DNA from: Planctomyces sp.
GTDB lineage: Bacteria > Planctomycetota > Planctomycetia > Planctomycetales > Planctomycetaceae
Reading direction: 5' to 3'
Assembly: GCA_016795105.1 (NCBI GenBank)
Contig: JAEUIH010000004.1
Span: 186,001 to 250,000 of the forward strand
DNA: 64,000 nucleotides
The notes below the pieces were generated by a model that saw nothing but the letters and a program-made list of their open reading frames with translations, did not search any database and was not told where the DNA came from. Below are positions 42,339-51,740 of this stretch, in pieces. Position 1 is the stretch's first letter. Each line of letters begins with the position of its first letter. Both the position numbers and the translations under genes were made by a program.

Positions 42339-43853
42339 TCAAAAAGAATAGGTTCCCTGAAGATAAAGCTGTTCTGCATCTGAACGCGCGAGCCCGCCGT
42401 TATTAACGGCGTCGCCGTAGAAAAAGACCAGATATCCAAGCTGCACATTGAATGTTTTGCTGTGGGTGTAGGTTCCGACGAAGTCCAGCTCCGTGCCTAC
42501 GTTCCTGTCACCACTTCCAGGGAGCGCCGCCCCGGCAAGGTTGTAGATTCGGTCTGATGCCTTAGCGAGATCGAAGTAGTGCCATTGACTCACAATCCCA
42601 AGTTTCTCATGGGGTTTGATGCTGGCCTGAACTCCATAGTCCAGCAAATTTTGGCCTGAGAAATTATCGATCTGCCCCCAGTATGCATGTCCGAGCGGAT
42701 ACAGAGTATAGAACGTATTGATGTCACCAGTCGTTGGATCGTTGTCCCCGGAGCCCCAGTAGAAGATCCCTCCCAAACCCGGTTTCCAGATGACGTCTTC
42801 AAATGTATAACCACCCAGCGCCCCGAACATCCCCGCCTGAACATCTCGATATTCTGCAGTTCCGAAACTGTCCTCACCAAACTGCCAGGCTCCCTCGATA
42901 TCCCAGTTCCAGGTACCAACAAGCGTCTTGCCCTCTTTGACCGGCAGCTTTCCGGTAAGTCTCGCTCCCAGCGTATGGCGATTGCCATCGTGCAGTGCTG
43001 CACTTGATTCGGACTCATCGAACCAGAGATAGTAGAGATCCAGGCTGTTGTTTTCGAGGCCGTTCCATGTCGAGTAAACGCCGCTGATCCAGCGACTTGA
43101 GTCAGCTCGATCGAAGCTGTACGGCCGAGGAGTGTTGCCAGCGGCTGCGTTCACACTTTGCATTGCAAACGCATCGATGGTCCATTCATCGCTCGTGTAG
43201 ATCAGCTTGTGGCCTTCAAAGTTACGAAACGTATTCGCCCATGCGAGTGAAGACAGAAGTCGCTGGCCGCCATACTGCAGAAATTGCCGACCATATCGAT
43301 ACTTCAGATTTCCATCACCGACGTCCCCGACATTCAGTTCCGCGTAGTACTGAAGCAGGTCTGCACGATTGATGTCAATCGGTGTGGGAAGATAGGGAGC
43401 GTCGAGCCCGAACATTGAAGCGTCAATTGCCTGAATGTAACCACCAACCAGGTCTTTGTAGCTGGCCTGAACGTAAGGAGTCATCCTCCAAAGTTCGTAT
43501 GATGAATGTCCGGGACCACCTGGACGCAGACGATTTTTCTCGTTCATGTGTCGATATCGCAGCTCAGCACCAGCCGAATATGTCAAACTGCCGGCCTTCT
43601 GACCCTTCAGGCATTTCAACAACGGTTCATCGCCCAGCACTGAATCAAACAGAGCATTGCAGTCAAGGACTCTGTATTCGATTGGCGGACAGGCGTCGAC
43701 TTCACCGCAACCAGGGTCACAACAGCATGAGTCACCAAAACTGACTTCGTTGTTTGCCATACACACATTGGTGGCCAGGAAAGCAAAGGCGATCAGTGAC
43801 GACGTCGACTTTACCACCCGCGAAATTGCAGAAAGCCGTGACATTGCTGACAT
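42339..43853 (-). CDS. Outer-membrane barrel, alginate-export/AlgE-like porin
   Basis: This 504-aa protein has an N-terminal signal peptide and a short Cys-rich mature start (CCCDPGC and CPP). It then consists of alternating amphipathic beta strands ending in a terminal Phe, as expected of an outer-membrane barrel. Blocks such as AGAELRYRHMNEKN, LKYRYGRQFLQYGGQRL and TLVGTWNWDIEGAWQFG resemble the alginate_exp family (PF13372), which planctomycetes use broadly as porins. It lies on the same strand as the nap genes, about 300 bases beyond them, so nitrate/nitrite or general anion passage is possible. The 294 bases upstream hold its promoter and nothing else recognisable. Confidence 0.78.
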   Translation of the reverse strand: MSAMSRLSAISRVVKSTSSLIAFAFLATNVCMANNEVSFGDSCCCDPGCGEVDACPPIEYRVLDCNALFDSVLGDEPLLKCLKGQKAGSLTYSAGAELRYRHMNEKNRLRPGGPGHSSYELWRMTPYVQASYKDLVGGYIQAIDASMFGLDAPYLPTPIDINRADLLQYYAELNVGDVGDGNLKYRYGRQFLQYGGQRLLSSLAWANTFRNFEGHKLIYTSDEWTIDAFAMQSVNAAAGNTPRPYSFDRADSSRWISGVYSTWNGLENNSLDLYYLWFDESESSAALHDGNRHTLGARLTGKLPVKEGKTLVGTWNWDIEGAWQFGEDSFGTAEYRDVQAGMFGALGGYTFEDVIWKPGLGGIFYWGSGDNDPTTGDINTFYTLYPLGHAYWGQIDNFSGQNLLDYGVQASIKPHEKLGIVSQWHYFDLAKASDRIYNLAGAALPGSGDRNVGTELDFVGTYTHSKTFNVQLGYLVFFYGDAVNNGGLARSDAEQLYLQGTYSF

Positions 43854-44147: not shown

Positions 44148-44669
44148 TCACTTCGCAGCGGCAAGCGGAGTATGTTTGATTCTGACCAGCCTGATGCCGT
44201 CATCGCGGCGTTCGAGCGTATCAATCCAGTTGACGGACTGCCATGCATATCGGATTTGTACTCTTGGAATCGTGCCGGTGAGTAGAGTCGACTGAGCCAA
44301 TCGCAGTTGCTCCGCTGTTGCTGTCGAGCTGACTGAAGATCGCTGAGACTGAGGTAATCGCTGCATCAGCAGAATGTCTGAACCGAGAAGCTCAATATCA
44401 GCGAACAATTGTTGCACCTGCTCTGCGGACAACATCGCTTCTCGCATTGGAGGCAATTCTTCAAGGTTGAGTCCAGCATGATTGGCCGGTTGAGAGACCG
44501 GCTGGAGCGTATTATGCGACTGGCCCAGCGTGTCATGCGATTGGCTCGTGGAATTGCCATCAGCCTCCGGCCCTGAAATTCTGACAGCATCCGACTGAGC
44601 GTCAGGCTCGAGGCGTGGCGGGCGAAGTCGAAACCAGTCACGACGAGTCATCTTTGGATTTTCAGGCAT
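44148..44669 (-). CDS. Small Tat-like protein downstream of the nap genes
   Basis: This 173-aa protein starts near TRRDWFRLRPP, a twin-arginine-like sequence without a long hydrophobic core. It has a Ser/Gln/His-rich low-complexity region and a C-terminal domain of about 90 residues (LSAEQVQQLFADIELL, then VQIRYAWQSVNWIDTLERR). I recognise no family. An internal Met at 44651 is an alternative start. It is the last gene of the napD-napA-napB-like run, 36 bases after the cytochrome. A role in maturation or assembly of the nitrate reductase is a guess from position only. Confidence 0.6.
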   Translation of the reverse strand: MPENPKMTRRDWFRLRPPRLEPDAQSDAVRISGPEADGNSTSQSHDTLGQSHNTLQPVSQPANHAGLNLEELPPMREAMLSAEQVQQLFADIELLGSDILLMQRLPQSQRSSVSSTATAEQLRLAQSTLLTGTIPRVQIRYAWQSVNWIDTLERRDDGIRLVRIKHTPLAAAK

Positions 44670-44705: not shown

Positions 44706-45536
44706 TTAGGGACCATTGTTCTGGTTGTTACTGATCTCGGGGCCCGGAAGGAATTGTGGTTCAGTATGCTGCAACGTTTGTTCGAGGGTGGCTGAAGGAG
44801 TATGGCACTGCAGACAGTTGCTTCGCCATGGATGAGTTGTACGAATGCCATGCCTGCCCGAATAGCCATGGCAGCTCATGCAGTCAGATCTCATCCAGGT
44901 TGTGTGAGGCATTTGAGGAGGTGCACCTGGGAAGGCCCGAGGTCCCCCGGTCGGTGCCGGCAAACCAGTAAACAGATTCTCGCGAAACACTACTGATGGC
45001 AAATGTCGCGGCTCGCTTTCAACATGACACTGCGTACAGTTTGCCATCATTGTGTGAGACATTTTCGGAATGAGAAGTGACGAAGTCACAGCGCCATTCC
45101 TGTGGCAGGCGATACAGGAAACATCTGATTGCTGATCGATTGGGTGAGGTACTGTCGGTGGAGCTCCATTAAAAGCTCGATTCTGAGATCTCTGCTGTAG
45201 AGCCATCAGCTTGTCTTCCGGCCGAATTCGAATTTCCGCCAGTGGGTCGATACTGGACTTCAGGCTGGCAAGGTCATCAGGAGTTCGTCGTGCGGCAGTC
45301 ATTCTCACCATTTCTGAATAGTCAGTGGCCGGGATGACACCATTGTCAGTGGCGGGGACGACACCGACCTCAGGTGGCTCCTCGCTCTCTGTCAGCTGAT
45401 TTGCGGGCGAACGCTCGGAATCGACAGAATTCGAATTCATGGGAGCCTGCAGACCGGTGAAGTACCCAGCCACAGCAACAGACATGATGACAAAGGCCGT
45501 CAGAAGAGCAGCATTCGAAGTGCGGTCCGTCGTCAT
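44706..45536 (-). CDS. Membrane-anchored tetraheme NapB-like cytochrome c
   Basis: This 276-aa protein has an N-terminal membrane anchor (about residues 10-28), a Pro/Asp linker and four CxxCH haem sites at 141-145, 167-171, 219-223 and 241-245. The two halves repeat the NapB layout: GAPPxxPH, a first haem, then an H near the second haem (copies begin at 124 and 204). Canonical NapB is a soluble diheme protein of about 150 residues, so this looks like a duplicated NapB. It should pass electrons to NapA in the periplasm. Its start overlaps the napA stop by four bases. Confidence 0.82.
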   Translation of the reverse strand: MTTDRTSNAALLTAFVIMSVAVAGYFTGLQAPMNSNSVDSERSPANQLTESEEPPEVGVVPATDNGVIPATDYSEMVRMTAARRTPDDLASLKSSIDPLAEIRIRPEDKLMALQQRSQNRAFNGAPPTVPHPIDQQSDVSCIACHRNGAVTSSLLIPKMSHTMMANCTQCHVESEPRHLPSVVFRENLFTGLPAPTGGPRAFPGAPPQMPHTTWMRSDCMSCHGYSGRHGIRTTHPWRSNCLQCHTPSATLEQTLQHTEPQFLPGPEISNNQNNGP

Positions 45537-47962
45537 GAGGGCACCTTGCTGATTCGCACTGCAGCCTTTTTGTAGTCAGGTTGTTTGGAAAACGGATCGA
45601 CGGCGTCCAGTGTCAGATCGTTGACCAGCAGCGTCTCGTCGAAGAACGGGATAAACAGAGTTCCTTTCGGTGGCTTCCCTCGGCCATCGATCCATACTGG
45701 AATGATCAGTGACCCTCGACGTGATTCAACTCTGATTCGGTCGGCATTTCGTAACCGATAAACGGCAGCATCATCCGGATGCATCTCAGCGTATGCTCCA
45801 GGCATGGCGCGGCTGAGTTCGGGGATACGTCTAGTCATCGAGCCGGTGTGCCAGTGCTCGAGAACTCGGCCCGTCGAAAGCATAAAAGGATAGTCGTTAT
45901 CTGGTAGTTCCGCCGGCGCAATCCACGGATGAAACCAGATCTGTGCTCGATCGTCATGCGTCGATGAATGGTAAAACTGAATCTCTTTCCCTTCTGCGAC
46001 ATAGGGATCGAATCCCTCAGCAAAGCGAAAACGTGTTTCCTGCCATTGCCCATCTGATTCGACAACAGGCCAGCGGAGTCCCCTTGCTTTGACGTATTCG
46101 CCATATGGAGCAAGGTCCTTATGTTTGAATCGCGTGAACTGCCGATACTCTTCGAACAGGTGTTCATCGACATTGGTGTCGTAGTAGTGTTCCCATTCCC
46201 AGATCGGAACTGGAGCCCCATCACCATTCTTAATGTCAAACAGGAACTGGCCGTCTCTGTCCTTCATGCCCTCGACGCCTCGATTAAACAACTCCCGGGC
46301 AACCGCAATCGTCTGCCAGCAGTCATCCCGAGCTTCGCCGGGCGGGTCAACCATCCTGAACCACTGTTGTGTTCTGCGTTCAGAATTGCCAACCATTCCG
46401 TTCTTCTCAACCCACATGGCGGATGGAAGGATCAGATCGGCCAGTCGAGTTGTTGCAGTGGGATAGACGTCGCTGACGATCAGAAACTTATCTTCCAGCC
46501 CGGCTTTATTGTCACCTTTGGGATTGAACAGCTTGTTCAGATTAGGAAGCGTCTGGCCCGGATTTGTCACTTGTACCCAGATTGTGCTGATGTCTCCGCC
46601 TTTGTCTGTTGGAGTGCAGAAGCTCTCCCACATTTTGACGGTGTGATGCCCCGGGGTTTCTTGAATTCGACCAGGCGGCAATCGCCACAGTTCCTCTGCC
46701 TTCGCGCGGTTCTGAGCATCAGTGACGACCATCCCTCCGGGAAGGGCATGTGACAGTGTTCCCACTTCACGAACCGTGCCACACGCAGAAGGCTGTCCTG
46801 TCAGGCTTGTCGGCGCATTCCCGGGTGATCCGAAATGGCCACTCAGCAGATGAATTCCGTGGACCATCGAATTGATCGCAGTTCCCCGAGTATGCTGGTT
46901 CATCCCCATACACCACAGGGACGTGATTTTCAGTGAAGGATTCCCAAAGAGATCAGCGAGCATGCGGATCTTGTCCGCGGAAACGCCCGACAGTGCTTCA
47001 ACGTGCTCCGGCGTGTAAGGCTCAAGCAGTGCCTTATAGTCCTCAAATGTGATTGCCTTTCCGTGAAGGTTGGGGTTTGCGTCGTCCGGAGCTTTGAAGC
47101 TGCAGAATTGGTCGACAAACTTTCGGCTCCAGGTACCATTCTTTATCAGCAGATGAGCGATGCCGTTGGCAATCGCCAGGTCGCCGTGTCCCTTCATTTC
47201 AAGGTAATGCTGGCAGGCCTCGGTCGTACGCGTTCGGCGAGTTCCAATGTCGATGAGGAGCACATTCTCTCCACGACTTCTCCGATCGATGACTCGAGAA
47301 AACAACACTGGATGCATCTCAGCCGGATTGTTTCCCCACATGATCAGAACATCACAGGCATCGAGGTCGTCATAGCAGCCGGCAGGTTCATCAACGCCAT
47401 AGGTCGCCAGGAAACCAGTGACCGCAGAAGCCATGCAGAGTCGGGCGTTGGGATCGATGTGGTTGTTGGACAGTCCGCCTTTCATAAACTTCTGAACGGC
47501 ATACCCCTCCGGAATTGTCCACTGCCCCGAGCCATAAAACGCAAACCGATCCGGAGCCGCCTGTATACGATCGGCGATTGTGCTGATCGCCGTCTCCCAC
47601 GAGATCTCTCGATAGCTGTTGCCATCTCGCAGCAACGGCTTCCTGAGCCGATCTTTGCCGTAAAGTGCTGCTCCGACGTGATAGCCTTTCACGCACAGCA
47701 AGCCCTTGTTCACTTCCGCATTTCGATCACCTGCCACTGCAACGACTTTACCACCCTGCACCCCAACCTGGACATGACAGCCCGTGCCACAGAATCGACA
47801 GGGAGCCTTCTCCCAGTTTACTCCCGTCAACGATTCGTCACCGAGAATTGGTAATGCAGGACCAGTGATGCCTGCCACCGCCGCCGCAGCAGCCATGGCA
47901 GATGCTCTGATAAACTGCCGACGATCAAATGCAGCATCCATCGGTTCTGAGTCAAAGCTCAT
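45533..47962 (-). CDS. napA: Periplasmic nitrate reductase catalytic subunit NapA
   Basis: This 809-aa molybdoenzyme reduces nitrate to nitrite in the periplasm. A Tat leader (DRRQFIRASAMAAAAAVAG) is followed by the [4Fe-4S] ligands Cys55, Cys58, Cys62 and Cys90. The Mo-ligating Cys176 (ARLCMASAV) and typical bis-MGD-binding segments follow (WGNNPAEMHPVLFSR, GMNQHTRGTAINS, STGRVLEHWHTGSMTRR near the end). Length matches the NapA family. ATG 47962 starts the Tat leader. It overlaps napD upstream by 11 bases and the NapB-like gene downstream by 4. No napC, napG or napH is present; the electron source is probably the divergent NrfCD-type genes. Confidence 0.95.
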   Translation of the reverse strand: MSFDSEPMDAAFDRRQFIRASAMAAAAAVAGITGPALPILGDESLTGVNWEKAPCRFCGTGCHVQVGVQGGKVVAVAGDRNAEVNKGLLCVKGYHVGAALYGKDRLRKPLLRDGNSYREISWETAISTIADRIQAAPDRFAFYGSGQWTIPEGYAVQKFMKGGLSNNHIDPNARLCMASAVTGFLATYGVDEPAGCYDDLDACDVLIMWGNNPAEMHPVLFSRVIDRRSRGENVLLIDIGTRRTRTTEACQHYLEMKGHGDLAIANGIAHLLIKNGTWSRKFVDQFCSFKAPDDANPNLHGKAITFEDYKALLEPYTPEHVEALSGVSADKIRMLADLFGNPSLKITSLWCMGMNQHTRGTAINSMVHGIHLLSGHFGSPGNAPTSLTGQPSACGTVREVGTLSHALPGGMVVTDAQNRAKAEELWRLPPGRIQETPGHHTVKMWESFCTPTDKGGDISTIWVQVTNPGQTLPNLNKLFNPKGDNKAGLEDKFLIVSDVYPTATTRLADLILPSAMWVEKNGMVGNSERRTQQWFRMVDPPGEARDDCWQTIAVARELFNRGVEGMKDRDGQFLFDIKNGDGAPVPIWEWEHYYDTNVDEHLFEEYRQFTRFKHKDLAPYGEYVKARGLRWPVVESDGQWQETRFRFAEGFDPYVAEGKEIQFYHSSTHDDRAQIWFHPWIAPAELPDNDYPFMLSTGRVLEHWHTGSMTRRIPELSRAMPGAYAEMHPDDAAVYRLRNADRIRVESRRGSLIIPVWIDGRGKPPKGTLFIPFFDETLLVNDLTLDAVDPFSKQPDYKKAAVRISKVPS

Positions 47963-48242
47963 GGCAAGTTGGCCTTTCAGACGGAGCTCCCGGAATTTCA
48001 CCGGACTCGTCCTCAAAATGAACAAACACAACATCGACGAACGCCACACCGGGGATCTGCTGCAGCTGCCTCGTTCTTTCTTCGAGCACGTCCGGGCATG
48101 AAGAGTCGATCAGAATCGGAATGCGATATTGAAGTCCTTCAGGACCCGGCACTTCCACACCTGGAAGACTGGCGATTTCGTCCATGGTTCGATGAAGGTC
48201 AGAATGACATCGGTCCAGAGTAACAACGAGACTGGCAATCAT
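47952..48242 (-). CDS. napD: NapD-like Tat-leader chaperone
   Basis: This 96-aa protein starts IASLVVTLD and has GVEV after a helix, then a C-terminal GVAFVDVVFVHFED strand: the ferredoxin-like pattern of NapD. NapD binds the NapA twin-arginine leader and delays export until the cofactor is loaded. Upstream residues in the frame (to 48314) do not match the family, so ATG 48242 is chosen. The 3' end overlaps napA, consistent with co-translation of chaperone and client. Confidence 0.83.
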   Translation of the reverse strand: MIASLVVTLDRCHSDLHRTMDEIASLPGVEVPGPEGLQYRIPILIDSSCPDVLEERTRQLQQIPGVAFVDVVFVHFEDESGEIPGAPSERPTCHEL

Positions 48243-48359
48243 GATTGAATACTGTTTCTCAGGAATCTGCTGCTTTCGTTCCTGAATTGAGGTGATCAGA
48301 ACTATCAGTGCCAAAACTCAATCTTGCAATTCCAGACAAACGAGTCTACATTTTCGTCC
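48243..48359. promoter_or_regulatory. Divergent promoter region between napD and the Rrf2 gene
   Basis: These 117 bases hold the promoters for napDAB (-) and the Rrf2/NrfCD operon (+). A 7-base inverted repeat (tcaggaa and its complement ttcctga, 13-base spacer, about 48258-48285) is present. I do not see a canonical FNR site or a copy of the palindrome at 53557-53582. Regulation by the adjacent Rrf2 protein is inferred from position. Confidence 0.45.
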
Positions 48360-48794
48360 ATGATTTCGTCAACAGCGACATACGCACTTCGAGCTGTCGT
48401 TTATCTCGCAAGTCAGTCAGACCGTTTTATCTGTCGATCGGAAATCTCCGATGCGACAGTTGTTCCCCATGAATACCTGTTAAAAGTTTTGGGACTATTG
48501 GATTCGGCGGGGATTGTTGAATCGCGTCGTGGTCCAGGTGGCGGTTATCGCCTTCGAATCTCTGCTGAGGAATTGACGGCATTTGAAGTTGTCAATGCAG
48601 TTGAATCAATTCCTCGGATTACAAAATGTCCATTAGGAATCGAGGGGCACCAAAAACTGTGTCCACTTCATCGACTTCTGGACGAAGGGGCCAGATGCGT
48701 CGAAGAGTCATTTGCAGACGCAAGGATTTCTCACCTGCTTTCAGGAAAGCGTTCAAAGACGTGCACTTTTACTGCGAACTTCATGAAAAAGTAA
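48360..48794 (+). CDS. Rrf2-family transcriptional regulator
   Basis: This 144-aa regulator has an N-terminal winged helix (YALRAVVYLASQSD, then SEISDATVVPHEYLLKVLGLL) and the wing RRGPGGGYRL. A cysteine cluster CPLGIEGHQKLCPLHRLLDEGARC follows, placing three Cys where NsrR/IscR-type members bind an Fe-S cluster. Rrf2 proteins sense NO, iron-sulfur status or redox. Here it is divergent from napDAB and leads the tetraheme-cytochrome/NrfC/NrfD genes, suggesting that it controls both arms. ATG 48360 is chosen because residues before it are not family-like. A second Rrf2 gene lies at 53099-53536. Confidence 0.88.
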   Translation: MISSTATYALRAVVYLASQSDRFICRSEISDATVVPHEYLLKVLGLLDSAGIVESRRGPGGGYRLRISAEELTAFEVVNAVESIPRITKCPLGIEGHQKLCPLHRLLDEGARCVEESFADARISHLLSGKRSKTCTFTANFMKK

Positions 48795-48808
48795 ATGGAG
48801 ACTAATCC

Positions 48809-49495
48809 ATGTTGGGCTGGCCACGTCGTTTGCCTGCTCTCTTGTTGATCGGCCTGCTGTTGCCGTGTGCCATCGTTGTTATTTTCACTGCAGCGATGAA
48901 TCTGCAGGAGACAGATCATTACGCCGCAATTGTTCAATCCGGAAATCCGTCGGGAGTCGACTCGATTTCGTCTGGTCAGCAATTGTCTGGGCAAAGTTCG
49001 ACTCTTCGCCACACGGTTGAGATTCGGCGTCCGACAGGACCTCCGCGAGTCATCACCACGTTGAAGGATGCGAGCGGAGAATTTGTGACTGTCGCCTGCT
49101 CGACATGTCACACAACTCGACCGCCAAACCATCAGAACAAAAGCGTCCGGGAACTGGATGAGTTCCATAGTGGCATGGCATTTTCGCACGGCACGGTCAG
49201 TTGTCTCTCCTGTCACAACTCCGAAGACTACGACTCACTGAAACTGGCAGACGGGGCTCCGGTGGAATTTACCAGCGTAATGACTCTCTGTGGCCAGTGT
49301 CATGGGCCTCAATTGAAAGACTATCAACATGGTGCTCATGGGGGGATGAATGGGTACTGGGATTTAACTCGCGGTCCTCAGCAGAAGAACAACTGCGTCG
49401 ACTGCCATGATCCGCATTCACCGCAGTTTCCCCACATGAAGCCTGTCTTTAAACCCAGAGACCGATTTCTCGAACAATCGGGGACTGAACATTGA
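48809..49495 (+). CDS. Membrane-anchored tetraheme cytochrome c
   Basis: This 228-aa protein has an N-terminal membrane helix (about residues 8-30) and four CxxCH sites: CSTCH, CLSCH, CGQCH and CVDCH. It is not a standard NapC/NirT, because it lacks the usual spacing around the first haem; the last part (NNCVDCHDPHSP) resembles multiheme proteins found with NrfCD-type complexes. It is likely the periplasmic haem module of a quinol-oxidising complex with the two following genes. Its TGA overlaps the TTG start of the Fe-S protein, indicating coupled translation. Confidence 0.82.
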   Translation: MLGWPRRLPALLLIGLLLPCAIVVIFTAAMNLQETDHYAAIVQSGNPSGVDSISSGQQLSGQSSTLRHTVEIRRPTGPPRVITTLKDASGEFVTVACSTCHTTRPPNHQNKSVRELDEFHSGMAFSHGTVSCLSCHNSEDYDSLKLADGAPVEFTSVMTLCGQCHGPQLKDYQHGAHGGMNGYWDLTRGPQQKNNCVDCHDPHSPQFPHMKPVFKPRDRFLEQSGTEH

Positions 49496-50478
49496 CGCCT
49501 CACAAAACGACTAACGGTCAGGATCCAAACGAGTCAGCGAATCGTCGTTCGGCAGAACCGCTGCTCCCGATTCTGGAGGCGCCTTCGACGCGTCGAACGG
49601 TTTTAAAGACGGTCGGCGCTGCATTGGGACTGGCCGCGTTTGGTGAAGCGCTATCACCACTCATGGTTGTTCCGGAGAATATGTCGATCGACGAATTCCT
49701 GCAGCAGCACTACAAGGAACTCAGTGACGACGACAAGCAGAGAATCTTTTCGAGACTCGAGGCTGAAACCAAAGAGCGTTTTGGGGCCGAAGTTAAGATC
49801 GTCGATCCGAAGCCGATCCCCGGTGTTCGTTTTGGCTACGCCATCAATGTCAGCAAATGCAATGGCAATGGCAAATGTATGGAAGCCTGTAACAGGGAAA
49901 ATAATCACCATCGAGGAGTTGATCAGTCATATATCAGAGTGCTGGAAATGTCGAAGGGCTCAATGGACATGGAGCATGGTTCTACCACCTTCGATCACAC
50001 AGTTCCGCAGGACGACAAGTTTTACATGCCCGTCCAGTGTCAGCAATGCGATAATCCTCCGTGTGTGTCAGCCTGCCCGATCGAAGCGACCTGGAAGGAA
50101 GACGACGGAATCGTAGTTGTCGACTACAACTGGTGTATCGGATGTCGATACTGTGAAGCTGCCTGCCCATATCATGCTCGGCGATTTAACTGGGAACCGC
50201 CGGAGATTCCCGCTGGTGAAGTGAATCCTAACCAGGGCTACCTGTCGAATCGGATTCGCCCCCAGGGAGCAATGGAAAAATGTCACTTTTGCCTGCATAG
50301 AACACGCGAAGGGCGAGCTCCGGCATGCCAGGAAGCCTGCCCCACAGGTGCAAGAGTCTTTGGCGATCTGAACGATCCGGATTCGGATATCAACTATGTT
50401 CTGAAGAACAAGCGAGTCTTTGTGTTGAAGGAAGAACTCGGCACGAAACCCAGCTTCTTTTATTACTTTGATTCATGA
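49492..50478 (+). CDS. NrfC-like periplasmic Fe-S protein with an altered first cluster
   Basis: This 328-aa protein has a Tat leader (TRRTVLKTVGAALGLAAFG) and four ferredoxin-type cysteine motifs. The second, third and fourth are complete (CQQCDNPPCVSACP, CIGCRYCEAACP, and CHFC with CQEACP). The first reads CNGNGKCMEAC, with Asn where the second Cys is normally found, so a [3Fe-4S] or missing cluster is likely. Family members carry electrons from an NrfD-type quinol oxidase to periplasmic acceptors. The start is a TTG overlapping the previous stop, and the gene end overlaps nrfD (ATGA). Confidence 0.88.
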   Translation: MTPHKTTNGQDPNESANRRSAEPLLPILEAPSTRRTVLKTVGAALGLAAFGEALSPLMVVPENMSIDEFLQQHYKELSDDDKQRIFSRLEAETKERFGAEVKIVDPKPIPGVRFGYAINVSKCNGNGKCMEACNRENNHHRGVDQSYIRVLEMSKGSMDMEHGSTTFDHTVPQDDKFYMPVQCQQCDNPPCVSACPIEATWKEDDGIVVVDYNWCIGCRYCEAACPYHARRFNWEPPEIPAGEVNPNQGYLSNRIRPQGAMEKCHFCLHRTREGRAPACQEACPTGARVFGDLNDPDSDINYVLKNKRVFVLKEELGTKPSFFYYFDS

Positions 50479-51740
50479 GTAGTCACGACATGGCAAACAG
50501 CAGAACAGATGCAGTCCGCAGCTATCCTGGATTCCTCTGGTGGGGTCTGGGTCAGGCGACGAACGGCGGGCTGAGTTTCTATGTCTGGATGTTTGTGCTC
50601 ACTGCAATTTCACTTGTGGGCGCAAATGCCTGGGCTCATCAGGTCGCTGAGGGGATGATCCTTACGAACATGACAGATCATGTCAGTTGGGGATTGTATA
50701 TCGCAAATTTCACCTTTTGTGTGGGGCTTGCTGCTGGTGGCGTCATGATGGTTATCCCAGCCTATCTTTATGATGACGAAGACATGCACAAAGTCGTCAT
50801 CATTGGCGAAGCAGTCGCCATCGCTGCAATCGTCATGTGCACACTCAGCGTGATGGTCGATCTTGGACGGCCAGACCGTTTCTGGCACCTGATTCCAGTG
50901 ATTGGTCGAGTCAACTGGCCAGTGTCAATGTTGACCTGGGATGTCATCGTACTGAACGGATATCTGTTGATTAACCTTCATATTGTTGGCTACCTGCTCT
51001 ACATGAGATATCTGGGACGTAAGCCAAATCCTCGCTGGTATGTTCCATTTGTGTTTCTTTCAATTCTCTGGGCGATCAGTATTCATACGGTTACAGCGTT
51101 TCTCTATTGCGGACTCGGAGGACGTCCCTTCTGGAACACAGCTCTGCTGGCCCCTCGATTTCTCGCCTCCGCCTTCGTCAGCGGCCCCGCATTTATCATT
51201 CTCGTGATGCGAATTCTGCGGATCACAACCGGATACTCAGCTCCTCCCGGACCGGCGCGAACGCTGATTCAGATTATTCGCGTCTCGATGACCATCAATT
51301 TGATCATGCTGGCGAGCGAGCTCTTTACTCTGTTTTACACAGGCGGTGCTCACAGTGCGTCCGCAAAGTATCTGTTCTTTGGAAGCCACGGTCACTTTGG
51401 ACTGGTGCCATGGATCTGGACTGCAATTGTCTGCAATTTGGTAGGCACGGCACTCTTCTTTATGCCAAATGCTCTTGAACGCGGCAGCATTCGGATCGTC
51501 GCATGTGTTCTGTGCATTGTTGGTATCTGGATCGAAAAGGGAATGGGGCTCATTATCCCGGGGTTCATTCCATCAACACTTCATGAAATCGTTGAATACA
51601 CTCCCAGCCTGGTGGAGTGGAAAGTCACGGCGGGTATCTGGGCGTTTGGATTCCTGCTGTTGACCGTGCTTTTGAAGCTCATTGCGACCGTCTTCGCCTC
51701 TGAAAAGTCCGGTACCGCGCTGGAGCGTGTGTCCGAGTAA
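50475..51740 (+). CDS. NrfD/PsrC-family membrane quinol oxidase subunit
   Basis: This 421-aa integral membrane protein has about ten helices in the NrfD/PsrC style, with WGLYIANFTFCVGLAAGG early, VDLGRPDRFWH between helices, and FGSHGHFGLVPW later. Such subunits bind menaquinol and partner with NrfC-like Fe-S proteins. With the upstream tetraheme cytochrome, the set looks like a complete quinol:cytochrome module able to feed the NapB-like cytochrome and NapA. The closest well-studied analogues are Nrf/Psr complexes and alternative complex III. Convergent with the DUF3365 genes. Confidence 0.9.
   Translation: MSSHDMANSRTDAVRSYPGFLWWGLGQATNGGLSFYVWMFVLTAISLVGANAWAHQVAEGMILTNMTDHVSWGLYIANFTFCVGLAAGGVMMVIPAYLYDDEDMHKVVIIGEAVAIAAIVMCTLSVMVDLGRPDRFWHLIPVIGRVNWPVSMLTWDVIVLNGYLLINLHIVGYLLYMRYLGRKPNPRWYVPFVFLSILWAISIHTVTAFLYCGLGGRPFWNTALLAPRFLASAFVSGPAFIILVMRILRITTGYSAPPGPARTLIQIIRVSMTINLIMLASELFTLFYTGGAHSASAKYLFFGSHGHFGLVPWIWTAIVCNLVGTALFFMPNALERGSIRIVACVLCIVGIWIEKGMGLIIPGFIPSTLHEIVEYTPSLVEWKVTAGIWAFGFLLLTVLLKLIATVFASEKSGTALERVSE

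Follow-up and report, generated by a model that had tools for sequence, protein, structure and literature searches.

A planctomycete nap locus with a divergent NrfD-type module, the probable quinol dehydrogenase of its nitrate reductase system

Introduction

Periplasmic nitrate reductase (Nap) systems of the kind known from Escherichia coli and Wolinella consist of NapDAB with NapC and/or NapGH. Electron supply through NapC or NapGH is regarded as non-conserving in terms of energy, whereas Qcr, which is used by the Nap of Campylobacter jejuni, conserves it; the role of NapGH in C. jejuni is called unclear, perhaps being the maturation of NapA (PMC6195509). What replaces NapC in those nitrate respirers that contain NrfH has been called less understood (PMC12285233). 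The present work deals with a nap locus of Planctomyces sp. (assembly GCA_016795105.1, contig JAEUIH010000004.1, forward strand, positions 186,001 to 250,000; this whole stretch of 64,000 nucleotides, numbered from its first letter, is the window in what follows), in which minus-strand genes for NapD, NapA and a NapB-like protein are divergent from plus-strand genes for an Rrf2-family regulator, a tetrahaem cytochrome c (THC), an iron-sulphur (Fe-S) protein and an NrfD-type membrane subunit. The last three, termed the module below, probably form the quinol dehydrogenase of this Nap system, as judged from the comparison of genes and genomes.

In NrfD-type subunits, quinone is bound on the periplasmic side, next to an Fe-S subunit of the NrfC/PsrB kind (PMC8076601, PMC13059093), and ten helices have been reported for DsrP and QrcD and eight for E. 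coli NrfD (PMC8076601). Electrogenicity in this family has been shown for Qrc alone, which runs towards quinone reduction (PMC13059093). The words 'Nap' and 'nitrate reductase' are absent, as whole words, from PMC8076601, and no passage proposing an NrfD module as the quinol dehydrogenase of Nap was found in the accessible parts of the open-access literature, subscription papers being outside the scope.

The nap operon and its divergent module

All these genes were found in the list of open reading frames (ORFs) and by family models, in agreement with the preliminary description of this DNA, which had reported napDA and a NapB-like gene. The limits of NapA (45533-47962), NapD (47952-48242) and the regulator (48360-48794) were set from their likely starts; the NapA ORF opens at 48049 and its likely start is the ATG at 47962. 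NapA has 365 of 781 aligned residues identical to those of E. coli NapA and keeps the cluster and molybdenum-cysteine regions (CRFCGTGC, NARxCMASAV), by which it can be classed as a NapA-type catalytic molybdenum/Fe-S subunit; the NapA models match it best by far, yet below their strict cut-offs (NF010055, 868.9 bits against 904; TIGR01706, 838.4 against 930.6). Twin-arginine motifs are carried by NapA and by the Fe-S protein of the module. NapD, the predicted chaperone of the NapA signal peptide, and the NapB-like protein (44706-45536) exceed the cut-offs of their families (PF03927, 32.6 bits; PF03892, 31.9 bits).

The label 'NapB-like' has to be amended as to the make-up of the protein. Its four CxxCH motifs are split over two NapB-like halves, each of which aligns with the regions of NapB that surround its two haem sites. 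In a three-sequence test, the second half retrieves the first at E 3e-10 and, at E 2e-6, E. coli NapB, values that serve only for ranking. The protein is best read as two dihaem NapB units in tandem, a tetrahaem product of internal duplication.

On the other side of a gap between the NapD start and the likely Rrf2 start (48243-48359), presumed to be a control region common to nap and the quinol module, the Rrf2-family regulator (IscR/NsrR superfamily; PF02082, 82.9 bits; TIGR00738 over cut-off) precedes THC by 14 bases, and 4-base overlaps join THC to the Fe-S gene and the latter to nrfD, so that the coupled set headed by an Rrf2 gene is confirmed. THC (48809-49495), membrane-anchored or exported, has four CxxCH motifs, a hydrophobic helix at residues 10-33 of the predicted model and a match to the NrfB-like family PF22678 (27.8 bits, cut-off 27), and the histidines H120, H127, H177, H203 and H228 are invariant across 47 sequences. 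The window THC has no match to the NapC family PF03264 at E 1e-3; its orthologues in two genomes (G038, G088) give weak matches of 21-22 bits, or 24-30 with neighbours. That THC might itself be a NapC was considered and rejected, as neither PF03264 nor E. coli NapC finds it in the window.

The Fe-S protein (49492-50478), of the NrfC/PsrB/DsrO/QrcC kind, matches PF13247 (Fer4_11) at 80.2 bits and has 15 cysteines; the strict twin-arginine pattern occurs in 17 of 67 relatives. At residue 126, a ligand position of the first cluster, Asn is found in 29 and Cys in 38 of the 67 clade sequences, and the window has Asn; the first cluster may perhaps be of the [3Fe-4S] type or otherwise tuned. NrfD (50475-51740) can be placed in the NrfD/PsrC family of quinone-reactive membrane subunits by its match to PF03916 (123.9 bits), its hydrophobic segments, about 10 in number, and the overlapping Fe-S gene. 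Among narrower models, that of DsrP (NF045798) is exceeded by NrfD (419.9 bits, cut-off 350) and that of DsrO is just missed by the Fe-S protein (191.4 of 200), whereas the E. coli-type NrfCD equivalog models TIGR03148 and TIGR03149 give 27.1 of 347.6 bits for NrfD and 126.8 of 377.6 for the Fe-S protein, and the QrcD and QrcC models 42.3 of 570 and 166.5 of 400, which does not indicate a QrcABCD complex. By these scores, the two proteins lie near DsrOP within the NrfD superfamily: the name 'NrfC-like/NrfD' given to them earlier holds for the family and is too narrow as a label, DsrOP being closer by model than E. coli NrfCD. Against PDB sequences, subunits of alternative complex III (ACIII) were the sole matches of NrfD.

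Conservation of the linkage between nap and the module

Of 101 genomes scanned in the family, 16 have an NrfD orthologue with an identity of 58% or more, and NapA adjoins it in 14; one of the remaining two carries a truncated NapA at a contig start, next to the module (L087), and the other is a 261-base fragment. Eleven further genomes of the family have NapA (42-86% identity) and no such NrfD was found in them, one being cut at the contig start (G014). In the phylum (392 genomes; NrfD at E 1e-30, NapA at E 1e-120), NrfD occurs in 77 genomes and NapA in 66, and 45 have the two together (Fisher p 1.8e-22, without correction for ancestry). The two genes lie 1.7-4 kb apart at no fewer than 37 loci in 35 genomes, 27 divergent and 10 on the same strand, a lower bound because two candidates were scored per genome and, for instance, contig C539 of G359 also has a napA-module pair. 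Co-occurrence and adjacency across planctomycetes, which the preliminary description had put forward as a check of gene order, were thus found. Where NapA is at least 62% identical, 27 of 32 are linked to NrfD, the other five standing on short or cut contigs; 54 of the 91 NrfD places in the phylum are not linked to NapA.

A scan of named genomes with the window NrfD returned at least 571 relatives, the best 80 of which (63-91% identity) were analysed; they overlap partly with the phylum set (L137, for example, is G047) and span Planctomycetota, Verrucomicrobiota, Myxococcota and one Sumerlaeota locus. With a single NrfD taken for each locus and NapA accepted at 60 bits or more, contig-edge fragments included, NapA lies within 6 kb of nrfD in 69 of these 80 loci, the other 11 being cut less than 3.4 kb upstream, and all 61 loci with at least 4 kb upstream of nrfD have NapA. 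At the 69 nap loci, NapB was found in at least 56, THC in at least 65 and the Fe-S protein in at least 63, lower bounds in that the ORF caller used for relatives takes the first start after a stop, which makes lengths long and misses some ORFs. Four CxxCH motifs are present in 52 of the 56 NapB relatives, an Rrf2 gene stands within 9 kb in 28 of the 69 loci, and NrfA does so in 3. In one named genome, that of Rubritalea profundi (L208), napA is in four broken ORFs and THC and NapB seem truncated, the Fe-S protein and NrfD being intact: either a decaying nap locus or sequencing errors.

Outside these phyla, a plasmid of Flammeovirga (Bacteroidota; L129), the first match opened of 1262 plasmid NapA records, carries napD-napA-cytochrome-hypothetical-4Fe4S-nrfD, its cytochrome being NapB-like and its hypothetical protein THC-like by our own profiles, with four CxxCH each. 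In the source genome itself, a second full copy of the locus on contig C17 (L068; NapA 87%, NrfD 92%, THC 65% identical) may be a paralogue or a stray contig.

In a tree of 67 NapA ORFs of more than 700 residues from chosen loci, one clade of 42 (99 in the Shimodaira-Hasegawa-like approximate likelihood ratio test, SH-aLRT) includes 40 with such a module; the contigs of the other two members are cut, and THC stands at the edge of one of them. Three loci of the clade (L078, L080, L081) carry the sister-type module considered below, and two other NapA groups (L086 with L129; L082-L085) have more distant modules. The pairwise distances of NapA, NrfD, the Fe-S protein, THC and NapB at 42 of the 80 loci correlate (r 0.46-0.78), and none of 999 permutations reached such values; inheritance of the five as a unit would lead to this, the correlation being computed without species-tree control. 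The association of module and nap is old and conserved in several phyla.

Absence of the usual donors

No NapC, NapG or NapH match was obtained among all ORFs of the 64 kb window, as had been claimed, and the source genome (99.96% complete) has no match to PF03264, no nap-linked NapH, the napH model giving two weak matches on non-nap contigs (44-45 bits, cut-off 213), and no NrfA that could be found. A NapC hidden elsewhere in the genome was rejected by genome-wide searches with PF03264. The same search was extended to 54 distinct genomes with this NrfD, that is, 58 less three with NapA only in which NrfD was not found (G014, G257, G470) and one (G483) that is very probably G047. PF03264 has no match in 16 of them (20 before these exclusions); in 31 it lies within 1.5 kb of NrfA, and so is NrfH; in the remaining 7, nothing but weak matches or large multihaem proteins was obtained, THC itself being one of these. 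None of the matches is a nap-linked NapC, and the NapC-family genes within 9 kb at 3 of the 69 named loci are each an NrfH next to NrfA.

As for NapH, a first count (0 of 69) used the best label only and could miss fusions; with all ORFs counted, none of the 80 named loci has a match. Elsewhere in the genomes, 48 of 76 match NapH at E 1e-10, always below the strict cut-off, and most of these matches are partial and far from nap; matches of 160-174 bits in four genomes (G319, G054, G339, G223) look like true NapH. Matches of 43-46 bits in G359 and G367 turned out to belong to a fusion of NapH with NapG, encoded between napB and a gene for a NapG-like protein (fused NapHG: G359/G367; L211, 3189-4883; L210, 3209-4897; about 540-565 residues). 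A NapG-like ferredoxin without NapH is present in 23 of the 69 loci by label and in 36 of the 80 when all ORFs are counted.

Gene content, order and coupling, the haem and cluster motifs, the absence of NapC and of linked NapGH from this genome and the linkage in several phyla are matters of direct observation.

Proposed electron route and its alternatives

The direction of electron flow, the order of the carriers, their physical complex, the quinol used and the signal of the regulator are what we infer. From the periplasmic position of the quinone site in NrfD-type subunits and the two matches of the source genome to PF02621, a family of the menaquinone pathway, a route from menaquinol through NrfD, the Fe-S protein, THC and the double NapB to NapA is proposed. 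Menaquinol would be oxidised at NrfD in the inner membrane, and the electrons would pass to the exported Fe-S protein and from there to the tetrahaem THC. The latter would deliver them to the tetrahaem, double NapB and, through it, to NapA, whose cluster and molybdenum would take them up for the reduction of nitrate to nitrite. NapD would mature NapA, and the Rrf2 protein would probably control both divergent arms.

Several observations weigh against this proposal. The best family model of NrfD is DsrP, of sulphur metabolism, and 31 of 68 NapA places in the phylum, the majority of which belong to other branches of the NapA tree, are without a linked NrfD. The single-chain models of THC (predicted local distance difference test, pLDDT, 76) and NapB (pLDDT 71) are without informative structural match: neither has a Foldseek match under E 0.001, the best VIA-align score of THC (Z 3.0, to NrfA) is too weak to use, and its sequence finds in PDB only weak NrfA and octahaem-reductase matches (best E 0.0044). 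In the genus g121 (G359, G367), of the same clade, the fused NapHG follows napB and the module stands on the other side; G319 and G223, which belong to a different NapA branch, each have NapG and NapH next to a related module. Therefore, module and NapGH are not mutually exclusive, and of the original statement that the module stands in place of NapC/NapGH, the part on NapC is well supported and the part on NapGH is a rule with exceptions. In G420, the module most similar to that of the window (L079; NrfD 71%) adjoins a NapB-like tetrahaem gene 32 kb from napA, which has its own neighbour NrfD (57% identical). A sister module (NrfD 53-58% identical) occurs without nap nearby. The footing of the proposal is genomic. 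The NapHG fusion and the case of G420 have lowered our confidence in it. In another genome (G211), the contig ends at the module, and the search for NapA gave nothing.

These exceptions lend themselves to a different explanation, that the module serves several periplasmic reductases as a menaquinol:cytochrome c reductase of general use, like NrfBCD or a hub of the ACIII kind, and that its nap neighbourhood reflects shared regulation. In 7 of the 10 sister loci L090-L099 (L090-L095, L098), a gene for an octahaem cytochrome of about 485 residues follows NrfD, which makes the sister set a likely operon for a quinol-to-octahaem reductase, of nitrite or similar; in L080, L081, L084 and L085 the octahaem cytochrome and nap are joined, and in L175 and L177 the THC-Fe-S-NrfD set adjoins NrfHA as well as nap. 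To this may be added the module of G420 away from napA and the NrfD genes near nap in Thermosulfurimonas dismutans, read by the authors, in the passage cited, as belonging to nitrite or sulphur metabolism (PMC5276818). The preliminary description had named two findings as evidence against its reading, a nap-linked napC or napGH homologue and an NrfCD set conserved without nap. Of the former, NapGH is seen in the genomes given above; sets of the latter sort exist in the sister module and in G420, while each of the 61 named loci with room, in the NrfD clade of the window, keeps NapA. The rarity of NrfA at the 69 loci and its absence from the source genome also speak against a general reductase, which we regard as unlikely. 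The NrfD module is portable, and in the clade of the window it is tied to nap, with exceptions.

It would be more surprising still if Nap were fed by ACIII or a bc-type complex through a soluble cytochrome c, leaving the module for another task, such as reductive maturation or the detoxification of nitrite or nitric oxide. The dependence of C. jejuni Nap on Qcr (PMC6195509) is a precedent, and a distant NrfD on contig C386 of the source genome, taken for ACIII, might offer such a complex. Cytochrome b genes adjoin other, module-free planctomycete NapA genes in six loci, together with an octahaem cytochrome in four (L108, L117, L122, L123) and alone in two (L113, L114), which suggests a Nap driven by a bc-like, possibly electrogenic complex. 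These NapA genes, however, are on other tree branches and without the module, and we find this explanation improbable for the window. Other module-free NapA genes have an octahaem neighbour alone (L109-L111, L125, L126, the last two near contig ends), and in L118-L120 a membrane-anchored tetrahaem gene is in the place of NapC, PF03264 finding the like in G200 only.

A sulphur-type complex like DsrJOP, near nap by chance, is hardly credible and was rejected: NrfD passes the DsrP cut-off and a RefSeq homologue is named DsrP, but dsrA has no match in the source genome and exceeds its cut-off in none of the 33 genomes with a module that were searched, 11 of which give weak partial matches reaching at most 41.8 of 392.9 bits, and the linkage to nap extends across phyla.

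Neighbouring genes of the window

At the end of the nap operon, ORF173 (44148-44669, minus strand) encodes a conserved protein without Pfam or NCBIfam match that carries an N-terminal RRxWFR motif. Its relatives stand within 9 kb in 43 of the 69 named nap loci, in many of which a NapG-like ferredoxin precedes them; in the window, only an RRxWFR-like start seems to be left of such a ferredoxin, fused to ORF173. An alginate-export-family porin of the outer membrane (42339-43853, minus strand; PF13372, 239.1 bits) is a possible nitrate or nitrite porin, loosely associated; 15 of the 69 loci have one of this type labelled no more than 9 kb away from nrfD. Beyond the module, the segment 51830-56314 encodes two Tll0287-like haem proteins, a second Rrf2 protein, a flavohaemoglobin-like protein and a protein with one CxxCH, in an order kept in the close relatives L136, L137 and L139; they are likely nitrosative-stress genes.

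Implications

This type of locus offers a concrete and widespread candidate for the replacement of NapC, because 31 of the 54 NrfD genomes have NrfH by NrfA and none has a nap-linked NapC. If the proposed route is true, it would be a distinct way of respiring nitrate. A bolder reading, which appeals to us as possible but rather doubtful, is that of a multi-phylum Nap branch driven by a charge-moving NrfD complex that conserves energy, Nap being served by exchangeable quinol modules of the NrfD, cytochrome b plus octahaem, NapC and NapGH types, with the NrfD type standing in for NapC in bacteria that have NrfH. Were it correct, periplasmic nitrate reduction, usually regarded as non-conserving at the quinol step, would conserve energy here. 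The energetics could be tested in the cultured carriers of the locus, which include Stieleria, Haloferula, Verrucomicrobium, Pelagicoccus and Pyxidicoccus. An annotation trap has also to be pointed out: the DsrP model of NCBI takes in the Nap-linked family, so that the NrfD of the nap operon in L129 (KM029_RS26155) is named in RefSeq as DsrMKJOP subunit DsrP, a name that may point to sulphate reduction in organisms without dsrA.

Comparison with known systems

With the canonical Nap, the locus shares NapA, NapD, a NapB homologue and twin-arginine export; it differs in having neither NapC nor NapGH, in its tandem tetrahaem NapB and in the adjoining NrfD-type complex. With E. coli NrfBCD it has in common a multihaem cytochrome c, an Fe-S protein and NrfD, a set in which quinol oxidation feeds a periplasmic reductase, whereas the window NrfD scores far below the E. 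coli-type model and has about 10 membrane segments against 8, THC has 4 haem motifs against the 5 of NrfB, and the partner is NapA. DsrJOP of DsrMKJOP provides the best models for NrfD and the Fe-S protein and has a multihaem cytochrome in front, in contrast to a source genome without dsrA and a THC with 4 haem motifs and no DsrJ-named match. QrcABCD and ACIII (ActABC) likewise combine NrfD-like, Fe-S and multihaem c subunits in quinone:cytochrome c chemistry, but the window locus is without a QrcB/ActB-like subunit.

Two further reports concern similar gene neighbourhoods. The 11-gene nap cluster of T. dismutans has NrfD, Fe-S and multihaem genes near nap, but in the order napMADGH, with NapGH present and NapB absent (PMC5276818). 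In the metagenome-assembled genomes OFTM8 and OFTM33, an NrfD cluster lies downstream of Nap (PMC10732223); these are probably L164 and L163 of our set, and in the passage cited the authors suggest a novel nitrite reductase or respiratory complex, not a Nap quinol dehydrogenase (PMC10732223). Set beside these systems, the Nap variant with a changed quinol module and a doubled NapB is real and widely conserved, a recombination of known parts that has been partly seen before.

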